Below, one piece after another: positions 2,116 to 51,581 of a DNA stretch of 64,000 nt. This DNA comes from Bacteroidaceae bacterium (GTDB lineage: Bacteria; Bacteroidota; Bacteroidia; Bacteroidales; Bacteroidaceae). The notes under the pieces were generated by a model that worked only from the letters and a program-made list of their open reading frames with translations, did no database searches and had not been told where the DNA came from. Location: assembly GCA_017557635.1 (NCBI GenBank), contig JAFYYH010000022.1, positions 1 through 64,000 on the forward strand. The letters are read 5' to 3'. The position numbers were made by a program, and so were the translations under genes. The first letter of the stretch is position 1, and each line of letters begins with the position of its first letter.

Positions 2116-2916
2116 ATGAAAAAGATAATAGCTCTCTTAATTGCGATTGTTCCTGTCCTGGCATTTGCACAGGAGGAAGAGGGAATGACAAGTCTTGTCG
2201 CTGATTCAGCCCAGATTTCATACGTTCCCACATTGTCCGATGCAGACAGCGCATATATACAAGGTGATTACCTGACCGCTATCCGCATGTATGAGTCAGT
2301 TATTGAGAATCAGGGCGTTAATGCCACCTTATATATGAATCTGGGTAACTGCTGGCTCAAACGAGACGAGATTGCCAAAGCGATACTCAACTACGAGCGT
2401 GCATACCTGATTGATCCGTCAGATCCGGATATAAGATTCAACCTGGAGTTGGCCCGCACTAAGACAGTCGATAAGGTAAATCCTGTAAATCAATTGTTTA
2501 TAGTTGTCTGGTTCAAGAAACTTCTGGCAGTCCTGGACGTTAACGGATGGGCTGTCCTGACAGTGATTCTGTTTGCTTTGACAGTAATTCTTGTCGGAAT
2601 ATTGCTCTTCTCAAAGAAATCAGGCATCAGAAAAATATCTTTTTCTTTTAGTGTCTTTTTCTTGCTTTTATCCATTTTATCTTTTATCTTCGCTACAACG
2701 CAGATGGGAAATCTCAAAGAGCGTGACACCGCAATCATCATGTCACCGAGTGTTACGGTCAAGAGTACACCCACCAGCGCCGGTACAGACCTGTTCATCA
2801 TTCATGAAGGACGAAAGGTTAAGATTCTGGATTCTTCCATGAAAGAGTGGGTTGAGATAAGGCTTGAGGACGGCAATACAGGTTGGATACCGGTAAACGT
2901 TATGGAAATCATTTAA
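2116..2916 (+). CDS. batE: BatE: TPR and SH3-like membrane protein
   Basis: 266 residues: signal peptide (1-19, LAFAQ), TPR-like helices at about 45-115 (the segment LYMNLGNCWLKRDEIAKAILNYERAYLIDPSDPDIRFNLELA is a textbook TPR pair), two hydrophobic segments at about 140-195, and a C-terminal bacterial SH3-like domain ending in GWIPVNVMEII. This architecture matches BatE, the last gene of the Bacteroidetes bat operon. It lies 8 bases downstream of batD on the same strand. The SH3 end probably faces the periplasm and may touch peptidoglycan; that is inference from the fold. Confidence 0.88.
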   Translation: MKKIIALLIAIVPVLAFAQEEEGMTSLVADSAQISYVPTLSDADSAYIQGDYLTAIRMYESVIENQGVNATLYMNLGNCWLKRDEIAKAILNYERAYLIDPSDPDIRFNLELARTKTVDKVNPVNQLFIVVWFKKLLAVLDVNGWAVLTVILFALTVILVGILLFSKKSGIRKISFSFSVFFLLLSILSFIFATTQMGNLKERDTAIIMSPSVTVKSTPTSAGTDLFIIHEGRKVKILDSSMKEWVEIRLEDGNTGWIPVNVMEII

Positions 2917-2927
2917 TCGGAATATGA

Positions 2928-3638
2928 ATGACTGAGTTACAGGGTCTCATAGAGACAGACAGATTGGCCACGCTGTCAATTAATGGCAGCGAATCCCTTT
3001 TCTGGGATGGTGTGGCCAATATATATACCTCAGCCATAGTGTGGATTCCGCTTGCTTTGTTTGCTATCTTACTGTTAATCAGAAATATAAACCCCAAAAA
3101 GTTGCTTCTTGTACTGATCATGGTGGCAGTCACCGTCGCATTGTGTGACCAATTGTCATCATCGGTCTGCAAACCGCTTTTCCATAGGTTAAGACCCACA
3201 CGTGATCCTTATATATTAAATATGGTGGATACCGTAAATGGCTATCGTGGAGGACTTTACGGGTTCTTTTCAGGACATGCGGCCAATTCTTTCGGCCTGG
3301 CATCTCTGTTTATGTGGCTCGTAAGGGACAGATGGTTCAGTCTTTCTGTCGGAATTTGGGCTATAATCAACTCGCTTATAAGAACTTATCTGGGCGTACA
3401 CTTTGCAGGAGATATCCTCGTAGGCGCCATTGTAGGCAGTATTATAGGCAGTCTGATGTATTGGATATATTACATGATCTCACGCAAGGACCGCAGCCGC
3501 CGCAACGTACATGATTCGAGTCTTTTATATACAAGGACCGGATTCATGCGCAGCGACGTATTCGTGTTCATGTGCGTGCTTTTCGGTACATATACGGTAA
3601 TTATGATAAGTTCCTGTATAACGCAGGGCTTGGCATGA
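2928..3638 (+). CDS. PAP2-family membrane phosphatase
   Basis: 236-residue integral membrane protein with the three phosphatidic-acid phosphatase type 2 signatures: K82-x6-R89-P90, S115-G-H117 (as FSGH rather than the usual PSGH), and R152-x5-H158-x3-D162. H117 and H158 are the expected catalytic histidines. Substrates of related enzymes include undecaprenyl diphosphate, phosphatidylglycerophosphate and lipid A phosphate; the sequence does not tell which. The start is ATG 2928; an ATG four bases earlier is in a frame that closes after three codons. It follows batE by 11 bases and may be co-transcribed with the bat genes, a context that fits envelope maintenance. Confidence 0.88.
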   Translation: MTELQGLIETDRLATLSINGSESLFWDGVANIYTSAIVWIPLALFAILLLIRNINPKKLLLVLIMVAVTVALCDQLSSSVCKPLFHRLRPTRDPYILNMVDTVNGYRGGLYGFFSGHAANSFGLASLFMWLVRDRWFSLSVGIWAIINSLIRTYLGVHFAGDILVGAIVGSIIGSLMYWIYYMISRKDRSRRNVHDSSLLYTRTGFMRSDVFVFMCVLFGTYTVIMISSCITQGLA

Positions 3639-41373: not shown

Positions 41374-41889
41374 TTATCTTTGACTCATTCCCTCGTTGAA
41401 TTTCTGCTGCAACTGCTTTGCAAGAGCATTGTCCGGATTCAGTTTAAGCGCCTTCTCAAAGTCACGCATCACCTCCAGGTAATACTTGGGGCCGTTCTTT
41501 GCAGGATCCTGTACTATGCGGACCATGTAGAAAAATCCTTTCATCGTGCATACGTCGGACTCATCGGCCCCGGCAAGTTCATCCATCTTCTTTATGGCCT
41601 GGTCTGCCTCGGCCATAAGGGTCTCGGTCTGCTCGTCATGGGGATTCGTAACCGCAAAATTGAGGCTCTGAAGCGCTGTGTAATACTTTGGCGCAAGGCT
41701 GTCGGGATACATCGCATCGATGCGTTTAAGTTCTGCCACACAGTTGGTTACCGACTCGGCCGTAGGTTCCTGAATCTTGGCCATGGACTTGCCTATCAGG
41801 GCCATCATCTGGTTCTGGGCACTGCACACACTGATAACTGCCATAAATACAATGGCTAACACGCTTTTTTTAGAAATTAGAGATGTCAT
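41374..41889 (-). CDS. Small secreted TPR-like protein downstream of TonB receptor
   Basis: 171 residues from ATG 41889, which overlaps the end of the TonB receptor gene by 20 bases. Signal peptide about 1-25 (VLAIVFMAVISVCSAQ). The remainder is helical, and the C-terminal part (LEVMRDFEKALKLNPDNALAKQLQQKFNEG) reads as one TPR unit. An upstream in-frame ATG at 41988 lies deep in the receptor gene and gives no signal peptide. Function unknown; the overlap suggests co-translation with the receptor. Confidence 0.78.
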   Translation of the reverse strand: MTSLISKKSVLAIVFMAVISVCSAQNQMMALIGKSMAKIQEPTAESVTNCVAELKRIDAMYPDSLAPKYYTALQSLNFAVTNPHDEQTETLMAEADQAIKKMDELAGADESDVCTMKGFFYMVRIVQDPAKNGPKYYLEVMRDFEKALKLNPDNALAKQLQQKFNEGMSQR

Positions 41890-43927
41890 AAGCTTTATTG
41901 TTTTTAAGTGAGATGAATATTCCAAAGTAGATGAAACTGTCGCGGCTTGAAGTAACCTGTGAACCGTCCGGATCAATGCGGTAAACATTCCTGCGTCCGG
42001 TAATGTTATTCACTGATCCATAGATGATTACCTTGGGATGAGCCAGATAGGTCACATTGGCGTCAATACTGCTGTAATACGGCGTTTTACCGGCCTTATA
42101 GCAGCGCCCGCTGGCATATGATTCAGCCATACCCACCACGAACTTTCCGAATGCGTATTTCACTGACATTCTCAAGTTGTGCTTTGAGGCATATTCCGGG
42201 GTTCCGGGAGCATCATAATCAAGGTAAAGACGCTCTGAGTTATTGTATGAATATGAAGCACTTAAGGTAAGGTTGCTCAACAGTGAGCAGTCCTCGGCAA
42301 AGATGTCCAGTCCGCTGCTTTTTCCGTAGCCGTTTGAGGTATATACGCCACCCTCCAGCAGGGGCAGATTATGGTAACGCTTATAGTACGGCTCAACCTT
42401 GATCAGTCTCTGTCCGTTGCTGTACTGAAAACTCATTATTGCATGGTCGGCAGTAGTCTGACGCAGGCCTTCACCGCTTCTTGCAATGTAGTCATCATCA
42501 GCACATTGACTGTATCGGCCCAGCATTACCGATGCCTGGAAATGATCACCCGGGAAACAGGTCAGAGCTGCCCTTGGCATGAGCATCCACTCCCCGCTGT
42601 AACTCACGTACTCATCCCTGAGAGATGCTGTCAGGAACACACGCGGAAAGAGTCTTACCTGAGCATCAAGATATGCTGCGGCAGTGTTGTAATCCAAGTC
42701 ATAACCATCACTGTTGTAACGCTTTACACTGTTTCTGATGTAGTCCTCCATTCCGGCCGACAACTTGAAGGCCGATGTAAAACTCCTGCGTACCCCACCC
42801 TTAAGATGAACCTCATTGCGGATGTTATGATATCTGTCACCCTGAACCAGAGCGCCGTCAATGTCATTCAGGACACATGACTCTGCCACACCGGCAAACA
42901 GCGAATAACCTGATTTCAAAGAAGTATTGAGTGTGACATTGGCAAACATGTTATGCTCATTCATCTGCAGGTTCCTGCCGCCGGTAATAAGGCCTACATT
43001 GGTCAGATCATAGCCTGCATAGCTTTTCAGAGTGGTTACGGACGATATTTCAGCCTTGTACTGGGCCTCTCCGGAGAGTTTCCCGTAAGGACGTGTCCAG
43101 TCACCGCGGTCCGGAAACAGTTTGTCGTAGAGTTCCAGACCTGTATAATCGGCATTGAATGATAGACTGCTCCTGTCAAATGCCTTGGTTCCGCCCAGGT
43201 TCCAGTCCACCAGCGATGCACTTACGCCCAGTTTATCGGCCGTAGCGGCATCGGTAGTCTCCATGGGCAGGACCGATGAGAGCGCCTGACCGTACTCACC
43301 GCTGTATCCGCCAAGCGAGAAACTCATTCCCTTGAACAGGAACGGCGAGAAACGCCCTCTGTTGGTCTGTCCCTCAACATTCGTGCTGTAGGGCACCAGC
43401 ACGTGCATTCCGTTTATAAAGGTCTGACACTCATTGCTCTCGCCTCCTCTAACGTACAGTTTGCCGTTCTCTGACACCTTCTGAGTACCAGGCAGCATCT
43501 GCAGTGCAGCAACCAGATCGCCGCATGAATTGGCCGACATGACCACGTCCAGCGCATCCAGCGACTTGAACTGATCCAGTTTGCCTATCCTGAACGAACT
43601 GGCCGATATGCACACCTCATCAATTGAAAGCGGTTTCTCGCGCAGCGTTATCTCAACATACGCAAGTTCTGAGGCATCGGCCGTAACCTTATACTCGTCA
43701 TAACCAAGGAAAGAGGCGCACAGGGTGACCTCACCTGCCTCATCGGTGGTAAATGAGAACATACCGTCGATATCGGTCATGGCACCGTCTATGGTTCCTA
43801 CTATATAGACATTAACACCGGGAAGCGGCTCGTACTCATCGGAAACCTTTCCCTTAATCTGTGTCTGTGCCGTTGCGCTGAACACGCTCATGAGCACCAG
43901 AATCAAATGCAGCAATCGTTTTTCCAT
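41870..43927 (-). CDS. TonB-dependent outer-membrane receptor
   Basis: 685 residues. Signal peptide 1-20, a carboxypeptidase-regulatory-like (CarboxypepD_reg) domain at about 22-105 (IKGKVSDEYEPLPGVNVYIVGTIDGAMTDIDGMFSF), a plug domain (VVMSANSCGDLVAALQMLPGTQKVSENGKLYVRGGESNECQTFINGM), then a beta barrel. Shorter than SusC-type receptors (about 1000), closer to siderophore/vitamin-type receptors. No SusD partner follows; instead a small TPR-like secreted protein does, and a LytTR regulator lies upstream on the same strand. Substrate unknown. Confidence 0.9.
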   Translation of the reverse strand: MEKRLLHLILVLMSVFSATAQTQIKGKVSDEYEPLPGVNVYIVGTIDGAMTDIDGMFSFTTDEAGEVTLCASFLGYDEYKVTADASELAYVEITLREKPLSIDEVCISASSFRIGKLDQFKSLDALDVVMSANSCGDLVAALQMLPGTQKVSENGKLYVRGGESNECQTFINGMHVLVPYSTNVEGQTNRGRFSPFLFKGMSFSLGGYSGEYGQALSSVLPMETTDAATADKLGVSASLVDWNLGGTKAFDRSSLSFNADYTGLELYDKLFPDRGDWTRPYGKLSGEAQYKAEISSVTTLKSYAGYDLTNVGLITGGRNLQMNEHNMFANVTLNTSLKSGYSLFAGVAESCVLNDIDGALVQGDRYHNIRNEVHLKGGVRRSFTSAFKLSAGMEDYIRNSVKRYNSDGYDLDYNTAAAYLDAQVRLFPRVFLTASLRDEYVSYSGEWMLMPRAALTCFPGDHFQASVMLGRYSQCADDDYIARSGEGLRQTTADHAIMSFQYSNGQRLIKVEPYYKRYHNLPLLEGGVYTSNGYGKSSGLDIFAEDCSLLSNLTLSASYSYNNSERLYLDYDAPGTPEYASKHNLRMSVKYAFGKFVVGMAESYASGRCYKAGKTPYYSSIDANVTYLAHPKVIIYGSVNNITGRRNVYRIDPDGSQVTSSRDSFIYFGIFISLKNNKAYDISNF

Positions 43928-44040: not shown

Positions 44041-44865
44041 CTAAGCTATGAACGACTTGAGTTTACCCACAAAAGAGCGTGATACGGGCACTGTGGCAAG
44101 CCCTCCGCCCAGTTCCATGGTATAGCCGTTGGAGTTTCCGTAAGCCTTGGTGATGCTGTTCAGATTCACCACGAATGAGCGGTGGCACTGGAAGATATTA
44201 TCGAATTCACTAAGGTCATTCAAAACAGCGGAAAGTGAAGTCTGGATCTCATCCTTGTGCAGTTTGCCATCCTTTATATACCCCACCACCACATTGTTCT
44301 TCTGAGCCTCAATGTACAGCAGGTCATTGATGGGCAGGGTCACGTCATTTCCGCGCACACGGGTATCGTGAATGGTAACCTGTATTCCGGTCTGCTTATC
44401 GGTTGTCTTGTCCAATAGAGCGTTCAACTGCCCTCTCAGATAGCGCTGGTATGACATGAACGTGGACAGTACTGATATGAAAAAGCCTATAATGAATGTC
44501 CAATACACGAACGTGATGCACAGATCAAGCCTCAACGGATAATGGAACATGAAGGTAAACAGCAGGAAGTTGCAAAGGCCTATGAACAGCACCATCAGGA
44601 AAATATTGACAGTCTCATGCCATATGCGCCAAGTCTGCACGCGTTTCTTTACAGGCATGGCCACCAGATATCCGTAAACCATACAGCATACGAACGTTAC
44701 GCCCCCGAACAGCAGTGACACCAACAGTTTGTTGCACGGGTACATACTCAGTCCGAACGGCTGAAGCAGATATAGAATCAGAAATACTATAACGCAGTAT
44801 ATGAGGCAATCTTTAATCCAGTTGCCATCCCTTTGGAAAGGATATTTACGAGTGAGAATAGACAT
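44041..44865 (-). CDS. LytTR-family regulator with N-terminal membrane domain
   Basis: 274 residues. Residues about 20-150 form four membrane segments; the C-terminal 100 residues are a LytTR DNA-binding domain (LPINDLLYIEAQKNNVVVGYIKDGKLHKDEIQTSLSAVLNDLSEFDNIFQCHRSFVVNLNSI). It lacks a receiver domain, so any signal is presumably sensed by the membrane part. It precedes the TonB receptor and the small TPR-like protein by 113 bases on the same strand and may regulate them. A -7 box TACTTTTG lies at 44889-44896. Confidence 0.88.
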   Translation of the reverse strand: MSILTRKYPFQRDGNWIKDCLIYCVIVFLILYLLQPFGLSMYPCNKLLVSLLFGGVTFVCCMVYGYLVAMPVKKRVQTWRIWHETVNIFLMVLFIGLCNFLLFTFMFHYPLRLDLCITFVYWTFIIGFFISVLSTFMSYQRYLRGQLNALLDKTTDKQTGIQVTIHDTRVRGNDVTLPINDLLYIEAQKNNVVVGYIKDGKLHKDEIQTSLSAVLNDLSEFDNIFQCHRSFVVNLNSITKAYGNSNGYTMELGGGLATVPVSRSFVGKLKSFIA

Positions 44866-47059: not shown

Positions 47060-47974
47060 ATGACTTTAACCGGAATTCTGTTTCTGATCATTGCGACTGT
47101 ATGCGCCGCAATGTTCTCTGTTGCGTTCAAGATATTTCATCGCAAGAACATCGATTCACATCAGGCAATATTCTTCAATTACCTGACAGCCTTTGTGATG
47201 GGTCTGCTGTTCTCACTTCACGGTGAGGTTGTTGTCAACCCCCTCAAAGCCAGTTGGCTGGCGCCCGTAATCATACTGGGATTCATTTTCATGGCCGGCA
47301 TGGTTCTGCTCTCTGAATCCACCCGTCGCGTAGGTGTAGCCATCTCCACAGTATGCAGTCGTGCATCGATGGTAATACCCATCATCGTATCTTATCTGAT
47401 GATTCAGGGCAGTGACAAGCCCAAATGGCTGCTTATATGCCTGGTTCTGGTTGCCATGACCCTTACCGTATGGACCGGAAAGCAGGAAAGCGGACACAAA
47501 ATAACCCTAATGGACATCCTGGCACCGCTTTCCGTATTCCTTGTATTCGGCGCCAGCAACTCGTTCCTCAAGGTGCTTCAGCATAAGGTAACTGTGGCCG
47601 ATACAGCCGCCGGACTCTCACAGCAGGCCATCAACAGCGAGTTGTCGCTGGTTACCGCATCGGTATTCTTTGTGGCCATGGTCATTTGCTCCTACTCATT
47701 CTTTACCAAGGACGAGAGCGGCAAGCGTACCCCTATCCAGTTCAAGAACATCCTGGGAGGCGCGGCATTGGGCCTTATCAACTATTTCTGCACCTACACT
47801 CTTATGCTGGCCATGAAGACCATTGACTCCTCCCTGCTCTTCCCGCTCCATAACATCGGAATAGTAGCCATAGGAGCACTGGTAGGCATGTGGGCATTCC
47901 AGGAAAAGATGAAACCGCACCAAATACTCGGAATGGTACTTGCTGCGGTTTCAATAGCTCTGCTTTGTATTTAA
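47060..47974 (+). CDS. EamA/DMT-family transporter
   Basis: 304 residues with ten hydrophobic segments in two five-helix halves (the EamA repeats), for example LIIATVCAAMFSVAFKIF in the first and LGLINYFCTYTLMLAMKTIDSSLLFPLHNIGIVAIGALVGMWAFQEK in the second. The substrate cannot be read from sequence; DMT proteins move amino acids, sugars, nucleobases or, in the RibN group, riboflavin. It follows the M3 peptidase gene by 6 bases, and its stop overlaps that of the convergent FMN-riboswitch-controlled gene by 4 bases. Confidence 0.85.
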   Translation: MTLTGILFLIIATVCAAMFSVAFKIFHRKNIDSHQAIFFNYLTAFVMGLLFSLHGEVVVNPLKASWLAPVIILGFIFMAGMVLLSESTRRVGVAISTVCSRASMVIPIIVSYLMIQGSDKPKWLLICLVLVAMTLTVWTGKQESGHKITLMDILAPLSVFLVFGASNSFLKVLQHKVTVADTAAGLSQQAINSELSLVTASVFFVAMVICSYSFFTKDESGKRTPIQFKNILGGAALGLINYFCTYTLMLAMKTIDSSLLFPLHNIGIVAIGALVGMWAFQEKMKPHQILGMVLAAVSIALLCI

Positions 47975-50900
47975 TCAAATATCAGCTTTACGCCCAGCTG
48001 GAGGTACCAGCAGTTGGAATTTGACTTATCCATATCGAAGGTCTTGGAAACAAGGCCTTCGTTGTTTTTTACCATCGTGAACTGAGGACGGCCCTCGGTA
48101 TCTGTACCCTTGTACTCCAGAACCTTTGCGTTGTTGCAGGCCGAAGGTGTCTGCATTACACCCCAGCTGCTGTTCAGAAGGTTGCCAACGTTCATGATAT
48201 CGAGTGATAACTGAAGTGTCTCGTTGCTGCGCTTGGAACCTCTCAGGGCGCCTACATTGAAGTTCTGGGCCAGGTGCAGGTCAAAGCGGTTCAGCCAGGG
48301 CATACGGGCTGCGTTTGCATCGGCATACTCACCCTTGTGGCTGCTCAGGTACTTGTCCTGGTTTACAAAGTCCCAGAAAGCCTGCTGCTGAGCGGCTGCG
48401 GTGATTGTACCGTTGTCAACGAACTGAATATCCTCCTTGTTGGCGGGAATCCAGATCAGGTCATTGGTTATACCGTCACCGTTCATGTCATTGGTATAGG
48501 TGTAACTGTATGTTCCTGCTGTGTATCCGGTATAGAACAGACCAATCTCAGTGCTCATGAACTTGTTCTTGGCATATCCCAGACGGTATGTGGCCATAGC
48601 AGTCAGCTTATCAGGAATTACATAGGCCGATGGGCGCAGAACCTGCTCGTTGGGGCTGTTCACGTTCACATCGTTGCTCCATGCTGAATTCAGGGCCGAG
48701 CCCTTCATATCCTGTACTGACATTGAAACCTGATGAATGTATGAGAACTCAGTCTTGAGACCGTATATGGGCTCAGCCTTAAGAGTTCCGCCCAGAGACC
48801 AGCTGTAACCCTTGTCGGTATTGCTGATAACCATGGCGCCGCCAGACTTGGATACTGTTGAATGAACAGATGCTATTCCGTTGTAATTCACTCTGTTATC
48901 AGCTCCGGCAAAACGTCCTGCAGCATCGTCGTGAACCTGGTTGTAGTTCTCAATATATACGGCGTTTATATCCTTGTTGTATATACCCTCAACCGATACT
49001 GCCAGCGGGAATGCCAGGTCATCGGGCTCATAGTCAATTGCCAGGGATGTCTTGAACACCTGCGGCAGTTTGAAATTATCCTGAATACCGGTTATTGATG
49101 CACCCTTGAGCACCGGATTTGGATTGGCGGTCATGGGCAGACCCTGCTGGACCAGATAATTACGCAAATCAGCCTCTGTATAGAGGAAATTGCCCTGCAG
49201 ACCTGTCAGGAAGGCATCGCCTTCCGTTGGGAACATTACAGTATTCTGCAGCATACCGCTGCTGTTGGGTATTGTGGCAAAGAAAACCAGAGGAATACGG
49301 CCTGTAAACAGACCTGCTCCGCCGTGTACTGTCAGCGTACGGGCATCGTCCACATCCCAGTTGAATCCTACTCTCGGTGACAGCTGCACGTTTGCCTTGG
49401 GCCACTTGCCGTTGTCTATCACGGGAGCCTGATAGCCTGAGGGAGCCTGACCGGGAGCATAGAAGTGGTTTGTCCAGTCAAGAGCCTTGAATGACTCATT
49501 GGTCTGCAGCGGCTCATAATACTGCATATGGTCTGCTCTGAGTCCGTAAGTAACAGTGAAATTGTCTGTTATATGTGACTCAGCCTGCAGGAATGCGGCG
49601 GTCTGACCGAACGATGTACGTGACGCCGGGTCATCGATTCCATCATATGTGTAAGTCATTCCGAATGCAGCGGGAGCAGCCTGGTTGATGAAATCATCCA
49701 GTGAGTTGTATCGGTAGTAACCTGTTCCGTACATGCGGTAGTTGGTGGCACCCTTCTGATACTGGTAACTGAAACCTGCAGTAATGGTGCTGTGAGCCAA
49801 TGTCCAACGGATATGGTCACTGAAACTGTATGTACGCACGTAGTTTCCGGTACCGTTTGAGAATGCCTCGTAGCCGCCGCTCATGAATGCGTCACCGTCC
49901 TTGCGGATATCGATATGCGGGAACCATGCCGATTCCGAGCCTCTCAGATTGCTTACGTCCGAAACGCTTGCAGACAGTTTGTTGCTCATCTTTCCGCTAA
50001 GACGGCTGTTGAGCTCAGCCACTGCCGACCATGCGTTATCATTGATACTGAAGCAGTTATTAAGGAATGCATACGAATTCTTTGATATGCGGTCCGATGC
50101 AGCCTTGGCACCTACTGTGCTCTTGGCATTGGGAGTGTTCCACTGCTTGTTGCCGGTCCAGTTGTAACGCAGCATCAGGTTGTGGTTGTTGTTGATGTTC
50201 CAGTCCAGACGTGCCAGAACCTTGGTATTGGTCTGGTCACCGTTGGTGAGGTCATATCCGCCTGCATCATAACCGTATGCCTTGAGTGCGGCGGCAAACT
50301 GGTCCATATCGGCTGCCGTAACGCGGCTTATCTTAGCGGCATCGTCACCCACGCCGTCCTGTGAAAGCTTATACTCGGTTATCGGACCGGGTGTGGTAAC
50401 ATACTCAGCATTAACAAAATAGAACAGCTTATCCTTAAGTATCGGACCACCCAGAGTGAATCCCACCGTAGTATGACTGTTGCTAACCCTGTCGCCCAGA
50501 TCCACGCCGTCAATACGGTTGCCGCGCATCTTCTCATTATGGAAATAGGTGTAGGCAGTGCCCTTGAAAGTGTTTGTACCGGACTTGGTGATTACATTGA
50601 TTCCACCGCCGGTAAAGTTGCTCTGACGTACATCGTAAGGCGCAATTGCCACCTGCATCTCATCGACTGCATCGATAGAAATAGGCGTTCCGCCGCCGGG
50701 CAGATCGGCCGAAAGACCAAAGCTGTTGTTCAGCACGGCGCCATCTATTGTGAGTGTGGTTCCGCGGCCGTCCCTACCCGCCATGGTGTTCTCAATGCCG
50801 CTGTAGGGCGACAAACGGGTGTAATCTAGCATGCTGCGGTTAACTGACGGCAGCATCGCCATGCTCTCACGGTTCAGGTTGTATGTCTGGCCGGTACGGG

Positions 50901-51399
50901 TCTCATTGAAATGCGTGCTCTCACCGCGTATGGTCACGGTGGGGATATTAAGCGTCTCCTCCTTAAGTATCACATTGAAATTGTAATCCTTACCCATAGA
51001 GAGCACTATGTTGTCATATGCCACATCCTGATAACCCAGGAATGACACCGTAACAAGATACTTGCCGGGCTTAAGTCCCGACAGAGAGAATACGCCGAAC
51101 TTATTGGCTACAGCGCCATAGAAAGCGCCCGTCTCATTGTTGGTAACCACCACGGCTGCTGCCTGGAGAGGCTCACCGTTGGAATCTTTCACAGAACCGC
51201 TGATAGATGCGGTAGTGTTCTGGGCCGATGCCTCCGCCCATGCAAACAACAACAGGAAAAGACACGCAAACCTGAAGAGTCTGAATGACATACTGCCGGC
51301 CTTAGCCGAAAATCTGAACTCGGATGTCTTGTTCATGCCCTTGGCACAAACAAGTTTTGCAGGCGCGATAACGCCTGACAGGACTGTTTTGTTTTTCAT
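47971..51399 (-). CDS. Oar-like TonB-dependent outer-membrane protein under FMN riboswitch
   Basis: 1142 residues if translated from ATG 51399, the first in-frame ATG after the riboswitch aptamer. A normal signal peptide (MSFRLFRFACLFLLLFAWAEASAQ) only begins at ATG 51291, so the true start may be there; a third ATG is at 51336. An ATG at 51414 lies inside the aptamer and can be discounted. After the signal come a CarboxypepD_reg domain (ASISGSVKDSNGEPLQAAAVVVTNNETG), a plug (SMLDYTRLSPYSGIENTMAGRDGRGTTLTIDGAVLNNSFGL... INVITKSGTNTFKGTAYTYFHNEKMRGN) and a large barrel ending LQLGVKLIFD. This is the Oar/TonB-receptor group. The riboswitch suggests a flavin or flavin-linked substrate. Confidence 0.88.
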   Translation of the reverse strand: MKNKTVLSGVIAPAKLVCAKGMNKTSEFRFSAKAGSMSFRLFRFACLFLLLFAWAEASAQNTTASISGSVKDSNGEPLQAAAVVVTNNETGAFYGAVANKFGVFSLSGLKPGKYLVTVSFLGYQDVAYDNIVLSMGKDYNFNVILKEETLNIPTVTIRGESTHFNETRTGQTYNLNRESMAMLPSVNRSMLDYTRLSPYSGIENTMAGRDGRGTTLTIDGAVLNNSFGLSADLPGGGTPISIDAVDEMQVAIAPYDVRQSNFTGGGINVITKSGTNTFKGTAYTYFHNEKMRGNRIDGVDLGDRVSNSHTTVGFTLGGPILKDKLFYFVNAEYVTTPGPITEYKLSQDGVGDDAAKISRVTAADMDQFAAALKAYGYDAGGYDLTNGDQTNTKVLARLDWNINNNHNLMLRYNWTGNKQWNTPNAKSTVGAKAASDRISKNSYAFLNNCFSINDNAWSAVAELNSRLSGKMSNKLSASVSDVSNLRGSESAWFPHIDIRKDGDAFMSGGYEAFSNGTGNYVRTYSFSDHIRWTLAHSTITAGFSYQYQKGATNYRMYGTGYYRYNSLDDFINQAAPAAFGMTYTYDGIDDPASRTSFGQTAAFLQAESHITDNFTVTYGLRADHMQYYEPLQTNESFKALDWTNHFYAPGQAPSGYQAPVIDNGKWPKANVQLSPRVGFNWDVDDARTLTVHGGAGLFTGRIPLVFFATIPNSSGMLQNTVMFPTEGDAFLTGLQGNFLYTEADLRNYLVQQGLPMTANPNPVLKGASITGIQDNFKLPQVFKTSLAIDYEPDDLAFPLAVSVEGIYNKDINAVYIENYNQVHDDAAGRFAGADNRVNYNGIASVHSTVSKSGGAMVISNTDKGYSWSLGGTLKAEPIYGLKTEFSYIHQVSMSVQDMKGSALNSAWSNDVNVNSPNEQVLRPSAYVIPDKLTAMATYRLGYAKNKFMSTEIGLFYTGYTAGTYSYTYTNDMNGDGITNDLIWIPANKEDIQFVDNGTITAAAQQQAFWDFVNQDKYLSSHKGEYADANAARMPWLNRFDLHLAQNFNVGALRGSKRSNETLQLSLDIMNVGNLLNSSWGVMQTPSACNNAKVLEYKGTDTEGRPQFTMVKNNEGLVSKTFDMDKSNSNCWYLQLGVKLIFD

Positions 51400-51400
51400 A

Positions 51401-51511
51401 AATTCTTCTTCCATCCAGACTTTACTGTCGGTACCGTAGTTTCAACGGTTCAACCTTTCGGCTCGCGGACTGTACCGCCGGTCGAGGAATTTCACCTCAC
51501 CCTGAAAAATT
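51401..51511 (-). promoter_or_regulatory. FMN riboswitch (RFN element)
   Basis: The minus strand carries the RFN signature in order: GGTGAAATTCCTCGACCGG then CGGTA, GTCCGCGAGCC, GGTTGAACCGTTGAAACTACGG-type stem, CCGACAGT, AAAGTCTGGATGGAAGAAGA. Only small changes from the well-known consensus (GGGTGAAATTCCCGACCGGCGG, CCGCGAGC, CCGACAGT, GTCCGGATGG) are seen. The closing helix P1 pairs 51504-51511 with 51401-51408 (one U-G), and its 3' strand ends one base before ATG 51399. The aptamer senses FMN and normally represses when bound. No separate terminator or anti-Shine-Dalgarno platform was found between aptamer and gene. Confidence 0.93.
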
Positions 51512-51518
51512 ACGGATG

Positions 51519-51545
51519 CAAATTTCCGCTTTCTGAGTGATTCCA
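51519..51545 (-). promoter_or_regulatory. Likely promoter upstream of the FMN riboswitch
   Basis: On the minus strand TTG (about 51547-51549), a spacer of about 20 bases and GAAATTTG (51519-51526), one mismatch from TAnnTTTG. The start point would fall at or just before the aptamer's first helix. Confidence 0.4.
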
Positions 51546-51581
51546 GCAAGGAAAAATTGCTAAAAAAGATAAAATGGAAAG

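Follow-up and report, generated by a model that had tools for sequence, protein, structure and literature searches.

Known systems and the present locus

The described riboflavin transport systems RibU, RibN, PnuX/RibM, RfnT, ImpX, RibZ, RibXY and RfuABCD are, to our knowledge, all inner-membrane systems. The thiamine system OMthi/PnuT of Bacteroides is under TPP-riboswitch control. Excerpts of the pertinent report describe it as an outer-membrane, TonB-dependent uptake system for a B vitamin in Bacteroidota (PMC6977713); both the vitamin and the protein differ from those considered here. The Escherichia coli btuB gene, which encodes the TonB-dependent transporter (TBDT) of vitamin B12 under an adenosylcobalamin riboswitch, shares with the present locus a vitamin-cofactor riboswitch at the translation start of an outer-membrane vitamin transporter and a putative attenuator at the coding start (excerpts of PMC11162775). 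Unlike btuB, our locus has an FMN aptamer, an Oar-like protein, an ATG abutting the P1 helix, and three covarying hairpins plus a candidate anti-aptamer strand within the gene. Riboswitch-controlled vitamin TBDTs are already known (btuB); the FMN/Oar pairing, the exchange of receptors and the RNA inside the gene set the present locus apart.

Among riboflavin transporters, ribU, pnuX and ribXY are reported to be FMN-riboswitch controlled (excerpts of PMC3766115), and RibU and RibXY occur in auxotrophs as well (excerpts of PMC6593275). As far as the excerpts of PMC4418817, PMC6593275 and PMC3766115 extend, their lists of transporters say nothing on the passage of riboflavin across the outer membrane. 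The terms "TonB" and "outer membrane" are absent from the main text of PMC3766115, a word search of the main text of PMC4418817 returned none of TonB, outer membrane, porin or Bacteroid-, and the excerpts of PMC6593275 mention no outer-membrane riboflavin transporter. The 2013 survey, which covered 11 Bacteroidaceae genomes, reported no FMN riboswitch or regulon in this family (excerpts of PMC3766115), and the Oar protein of Myxococcus serves protein secretion (excerpts of PMC6434023). A search of openly licensed papers, which leaves absence in print unproved, found neither an outer-membrane flavin transporter nor an FMN-riboswitch/TonB pairing.

The window analysed here is a stretch of 64,000 nucleotides from the genome of a Bacteroidaceae bacterium. 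Based on the position of the aptamer, the auxotrophy of the genus, an order-wide split according to ribH and the swap of receptors at the locus, the Oar-like gene probably encodes an outer-membrane, likely TonB-driven importer of riboflavin (or FMN/FAD) in a riboflavin auxotroph. TonB dependence, the flavin substrate, the direction of control (by analogy with known FMN riboswitches) and the anti-aptamer mechanism are what we infer.

An FMN aptamer abutting the start codon of an Oar-like gene

The features of the locus are as follows.

51518-51552, minus strand: promoter-like TTG ... AAATTTG just 5' of the aptamer (by eye; similar in many genus sequences)
51399-51513, minus strand: FMN riboswitch aptamer (RFN element; cmscan, RF00050), with the P1 3' strand GAAGAAUU immediately 5' of the ATG
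51412-51421, minus strand: aptamer core AGUCUGGAUG, which would pair with the candidate anti-aptamer strand
51397-51399, minus strand: start codon, one base past P1
51360-51377, minus strand: HP1, hairpin in codons 8-14 (CAGGCGU/GCGCCUG; covariation, RNAalifold)
51328-51354, minus strand: HP2, 12-bp hairpin in codons 16-24 (CUUGUUUGUGCC-AAG-GGCAUGAACAAG; covariation, de novo prediction)
51296-51309, minus strand: HP3, 5-bp hairpin (UCGGC-UAAG-GCCGG; covariation, de novo prediction)
51278-51287, minus strand: candidate anti-aptamer strand CAUUCAGACU, 10/10 complement of the aptamer core (minimum-energy fold)
47971-51399, minus strand: Oar-like outer-membrane protein, 1142 aa (ORF from the abutting ATG; Pfam domains)
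47060-47974, plus strand: EamA-family transporter, convergent neighbour of the Oar-like gene (Pfam EamA; synteny)

The cmscan analysis of the window detected a complete RF00050 (FMN/RFN) element, covering model positions 1-138 at 51513-51399 on the minus strand with 104.2 bits (E 3.8e-23), well above the gathering score of 66.2; this is the single RF00050 match in the source genome as assembled (2.44 Mb, 24 contigs, 89% complete). The match is thus full-length, above the curated score and endowed with a conserved core, most positions of which are invariant in an alignment of 24 genus sequences. Based on this conservation, the aptamer would be expected to bind FMN and to control expression. The last base of the model is the A of the ATG at 51399 and the P1 helix stops two bases sooner (51401), which confirms the first-pass description of a complete RFN aptamer one base ahead of the first usable ATG of an Oar-like protein. 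In the genus, 20 Oar-type and 5 plug-type sequences were read, and in all 25 the ATG lies at most 2 nt from the end of the aptamer model. The interval given in the first-pass annotation, 51291-51511, corresponds to the aptamer plus 36 codons, 51291 being a Met (Met37) that precedes a signal peptide of ordinary appearance. The ATG next to the aptamer is more likely the true start than Met37, because two genus sequences (L114, L054) have none of ATG, GTG or TTG at the Met37 position; in the window itself initiation at Met37 is less probable but conceivable.

Bacteroidota promoters follow the consensus TTTG / TAnnTTTG. A scan for sigma-70-type promoters returned no site at 51518-51552, where the promoter-like motif was noted by eye.

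RFN elements of other Bacteroidales belong to the same aptamer family and precede ribD, ribB/ribBA or receptor genes, but the gene mostly starts tens to ~175 nt downstream, whereas the window gene has no spacer. A strict scan of those spacers found a G+C-rich hairpin followed by a U-run in 13 of 36 loci; by eye, many are GCCCUGA...UCAGGGC-like. L009 (G115) and L087 (G198), which belong to a different family of the order, likewise have a plug-type receptor gene whose ATG directly adjoins the RFN aptamer (offsets of 2 and 0); the layout without spacer therefore also exists outside the genus of the window.

The predicted protein consists of a 36-aa N-terminal extension, a signal peptide (Met37 at 51291, by eye), a CarboxypepD_reg domain (PF13620, 1.7e-19) and an OMP_b-brl_4/TBDT barrel (PF25183, 6.8e-43); the TonB_dep_Rec barrel PF00593 reached 29.5 bits against a curated cut-off of 27. 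The combination of an N-terminal carboxypeptidase-regulatory-like domain and a large TBDT-type barrel, which we take to be the mark of Oar-like proteins, is present in the window protein. Pfam reported no Plug domain (PF07715) at E<=0.001, no NCBIfam model matched at the same threshold, and a PDB sequence search gave no match. The inner-membrane domains of the described riboflavin transporter families (RibU, RibN, PnuX, RfnT, ImpX, RibZ, RibXY, RfuABCD) are absent, the Pfam matches being to outer-membrane barrel and carboxypeptidase-like domains only. The closest named relatives come from uncultured Bacteroidales/Bacteroidaceae, with several titles mentioning ruminant reticulum, omasum or horse faeces.

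RibN is also a member of the EamA family, and the convergent EamA transporter (47060-47974) is a possible candidate for the inner-membrane partner of the receptor. Elsewhere in the window, a gene for a carboxypeptidase-regulatory-like-domain protein stands beside a putative regulator gene on the same strand (41870-43927 and 44041-44865, minus strand); by eye the regulator is presumably of the LytTR type.

Conserved RNA within the first codons

The first ~123 coding bases form a conserved RNA with three covarying hairpins, which comparison of genus sequences supports well. In the 24-sequence alignment, 100% of the HP1 cells were paired, with changes on both sides in 3 of 7 pairs, and 88.9% of those of HP2, with compensatory changes in 9 of 12; restricted to 17 distinct Oar-type rows, HP2 was paired in 96.1% with compensatory changes in 6/12, and among the Oar-type rows HP3 was paired in 95.3% with double changes in one of its five pairs. 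HP1, HP2 and P1 together contained 51 double-changed cells vs 15.5 in shuffles (0/500 as high) in the 24 sequences, in which the outer four pairs of P1 were poorly kept and the inner four firm. RNAalifold, without a given structure, predicted HP1, HP2 and HP3 from an alignment of 18 Oar-type leaders, of which 17 are distinct and which did not include L054 and L055. In the Oar-type leaders 97.1% of cells pair and 26 were double-changed vs 7.3 after shuffling (0/500), and one of five measures, the number of further pair types, was not above shuffles (379/500).

Among 11 close sequences, synonymous divergence per site rose from 0.076 over codons 2-36 to 0.281 over the signal peptide and 0.470 over codons 61-300. 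Conservation of the leader as a peptide was rejected, as codons 25-36 diverge less at synonymous (0.024 per site) than at nonsynonymous sites (0.053), pointing to constraint on the RNA; codons 8-24 show the usual order (synonymous 0.121, nonsynonymous 0.040 per site) and some peptide constraint is possible there. A pairing of the HP1 3' arm with the aptamer 5' strand, visible by eye in some sequences, is lost where HP1 changed and was dropped.

The first ~60 nt of the Oar-like and plug-type genes can be aligned (24 genus sequences, L055 left out). A covariance model of the leader, built from 12 Oar-type leaders which match it by construction, detected among sequences outside it the Oar-type L054 (1e-7) and the plug-type L124 (3e-6), L057 (2e-5), L063 (0.011) and, weakly, L062 (0.3). 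No match was obtained in L055, L056, five RFN-less Oar-like loci beside aspS, G293/G331 or the sister-genus loci. In whole-genome searches the model matched 21 of 37 genus genomes at one place each (in G556 on two contig pieces), each listed place being the start of this receptor gene; it missed 5 of the 26 aptamer-bearing genomes (G362, G432, G486, G510, G521) and matched no aptamer-less one.

When 247 nt around the start were folded (z -2.8) with a program that models neither FMN nor loop-loop contacts, the aptamer core GUCUGGAUG paired with CAUUCAGAC of codons 38-41, and the start region together with HP1-HP3 came to lie inside this pairing. The start region is single-stranded in the centroid fold and partly paired in the minimum-energy fold. 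Of the 19 Oar-type sequences used (L059 excluded), 14 have a complement of at least 9/10 core positions between +113 and +125: 10/10 in ten near sequences and, with different letters, in L068, and 9/10 in L122, L058 and L114. The chance of finding such a complement in 41 positions is 0.00-0.14 for each of the 14, near sequences not being independent. The complement fails in the Oar-type L061, L117, L060, L054 and L055 and in four of five plug-type sequences, and in 16 of 25 sequences a duplex-energy scan of 584 positions located stronger sites in other parts of the ORF. We hypothesize that the expression platform would lie within the gene, with the anti-aptamer strand competing with the FMN aptamer.

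Known FMN riboswitches shut expression when FMN is plentiful, and the same direction of control is assumed here. With plentiful FMN the aptamer would close, and P1, whose 3' strand ends just before the ATG, would hide the start so that little protein is made. With scarce FMN the aptamer would open, leaving the start region single-stranded between the aptamer and the three hairpins of the first 36 codons, and the importer would be produced; this open state may be locked by codons 38-41, where a strand would pair with the aptamer core. Riboflavin brought into the cell would then be phosphorylated by RibF.

Two roles are conceivable for the in-gene hairpins, namely keeping the open form in place or attenuation of the btuB kind. 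In the latter case a hidden start would leave HP1-HP3 untranslated, the hairpins would form and transcription would stop, directly or through Rho; this concerns the RNA step alone and not the role as importer. In btuB the putative attenuator at the coding start is needed for transcriptional repression, with Rho-dependent termination when longer coding stretches are present (excerpts of PMC11162775), and HP1-HP3 are similarly placed. Behind HP1, HP2 and HP3, however, no conserved U-run is seen by eye, and we regard the attenuator as a possible alternative to the anti-aptamer platform, though less likely than not. An intrinsic terminator as expression platform of this gene was rejected for the same lack of a U-run together with the missing spacer between aptamer and ATG, although related loci frequently contain one.

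Aptamer target and capacity for riboflavin synthesis

The order sample comprised 247 genomes, including the source genome, and 59 of them carry an RFN element. The gene that follows is ribD or ribB/ribBA (identified by eye from sequence) in 33, an outer-membrane receptor alone in 25, and unreadable in one (G227, contig end); the 25 include the genome of the window, and in one of the remaining 24 (G246) the aptamer is a sub-cut-off fragment at a contig start. Lumazine synthase (ribH) was found in 203/247 genomes. It was present in none of the 25 genomes with an RFN-linked receptor vs all 33 with an RFN-linked rib gene (Fisher 5.7e-17; no strict probability, as the genomes are related, the 25 spanning 16 families). 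Apart from the window protein there are 24 RFN-linked receptors. Pfam Plug was detected in 23 of them, 11 of which are truncated where the sequence read stops; the last one (G133) is a 168-aa fragment at a contig end with a carboxypeptidase-like domain only and 32% identity to the N-terminal part of the window protein. Nineteen ribH-less genomes (G003, G013, G030, G043 and others) lack RFN, and a receptor-type RFN is present in 25 of the 44 ribH-less genomes sampled. The ribH-positive G190 (L095), counted among the 33, has a second RFN ahead of a receptor gene (2821-3390, minus strand) that stops after 190 aa within the Plug domain, which looks like a decayed importer in a B2-maker.

In the genus of the window, lumazine synthase and RibD_C were detected in 0/37 genomes and the flavokinase RibF in 36/37, and the lumazine synthase and RibD_C searches were positive in 14/14 control genomes. 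By these two markers the genus is a riboflavin auxotroph. Many genus genomes are 62-90% complete and 8/37 reach at least 90%; with a loss uniform in all 37, these eight included, incompleteness is therefore no explanation.

Within the family sample, 23 of 301 genomes have RFN, 17 of which are among the 21 sampled members of this genus. In the sister genera, RFN precedes a receptor in species without ribH (G247, G275, G251, G277) and ribBA in species with it (G297, G349), two of the four ribH-less genomes being merely 79 and 83% complete; one genus contains two receptor-type and two ribBA-type species, and the other genus the remaining two receptor-type species.

The first-pass annotation had read the gene as a flavin importer made under FMN scarcity, and had advised a search for RFN-linked homologues in genomes lacking riboflavin synthesis genes. 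This reading is supported by the distribution of ribH in the order and by the absence of both markers from the genus: RFN-linked receptors do occur in genomes without rib genes (in the order, all 25 lack ribH). A complete lack of RFN at homologues, which had been named as evidence to the contrary, is excluded by its presence at 21 Oar-like genes of the genus, that of the window included.

A cargo other than free flavin that is of use at low FMN, for example iron linked to FMN or a protein or peptide that carries flavin, for which the aptamer would only report need, has also to be considered, given that TBDTs take many cargoes, that the Oar-like protein is large (1142 aa) and that one studied Oar handles a protein (excerpts of PMC6434023). 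We consider it unlikely: the link to loss of riboflavin synthesis is complete in the 58 readable RFN genomes (G190 classed by its first aptamer), the Oar-like gene replaces a smaller plug-type receptor, flavin itself is the simplest cargo, and the retention of RibF in nearly all genus members fits the arrival of riboflavin in the cytoplasm.

Import of free flavin is proposed for this locus and not for Oar-like proteins at large. A role of the family as general flavin importers was ruled out: the aptamer accompanies 5 of 79 relatives fetched, all five with at least 59% identity (the pattern scan used recovered 52 of 53 known aptamer loci; some relatives' loci are cut by contig ends), and relatives at no more than 48% identity sit, aptamer-less, in ribH-positive riboflavin prototrophs. 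Because few relatives have the aptamer and many occur in ribH-positive genomes, the flavin role would belong to the window locus and is rejected for the family as a whole.

Exchange of receptors at one locus

The Oar-like gene was detected in 31 of 37 genus genomes (E<=1e-30) and a plug-type receptor (L057 as query) in five, with no genome having both and G460 neither. Both types are mostly found between aspS (or other upstream genes) and an EamA transporter gene: an EamA match lies near the receptor gene, of either type, in 24 of 33 loci read, and in most of them aspS either adjoins the gene or lies upstream at a distance of a few kb. Contig ends cut several of the loci. In G293 and G331 the Oar-like gene is elsewhere, with neither neighbour. 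The mutual exclusion of the two types may come partly from the single shared locus instead of a shared function. In L124 (G559) the plug-type gene (4210 onward) is interrupted and reads as two ORFs, owing to decay or an assembly error.

Aptamers of 93-113 bits were found in 26/37 genomes, 21 Oar-type and five plug-type; in G556 the aptamer and leader are on a separate contig piece from the Oar-like gene. No aptamer was found in G293, G313, G331 and G460 by whole-genome search or in G547, G550, G551 and G552 within the locus, and G544, G548 and G553 are counted with neither group. Since all of these eight but G460 have an Oar-like gene, that is, seven genus members have it without an aptamer, FMN control of the gene is, on this comparison, dispensable. 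In L109, L112, L113, L115 and L116 the aptamer-less Oar-like gene begins at or within ~60 nt of the end of aspS, and the two apparently share one operon.

On a RibF tree of 36 genomes the plug type stands in three places and requires three changes, of which starred branches force two. The tree is based on one gene, carries long-branch warnings and has G556 entered as aptamer-bearing. The plug type is probably the older form at the locus, because it is also the RFN-linked form in both sister genera. Homology of the two receptor types was not detectable by profile comparison (probability 1.2). Given the similarity of their 5' coding regions, the Oar-like gene appears to have acquired the beginning of the older gene and to have retained it as an extension at the N-terminus, in front of its own signal peptide.

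That the aptamer is a mere passenger from the replaced plug-type gene, without useful control of the Oar-like gene, could be argued from this shared start and from the seven aptamer-less members, but is very improbable given aptamers of such scores in 21 Oar-type genomes, a core invariant at most positions, and an adjoining leader whose compensatory changes and low synonymous divergence indicate an RNA under selection together with the Oar-like gene.

Taken jointly, these observations lead us to propose, tentatively and as a reading that could nearly as well hold as fail, that an in-gene platform (the first 41 codons, in which three hairpins and an anti-aptamer strand would hold the start open) serves a cassette with repeatedly exchanged receptors, in which the newer gene inherited the older start as an RNA-constrained extension, and that RFN-controlled receptors would constitute an outer-membrane flavin uptake system.

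Significance

In the layout described here, regulatory RNA shares part of its sequence with the coding region. Candidate outer-membrane flavin importers can be recognised by the FMN riboswitch in 16 families of the order, and within the sample the gene that it precedes tells auxotrophs and prototrophs apart. The target of the RFN element can in this way be read from genomes as a marker for dependence on vitamin B2 in gut communities, and it supplies candidate genes for uptake of the vitamin.
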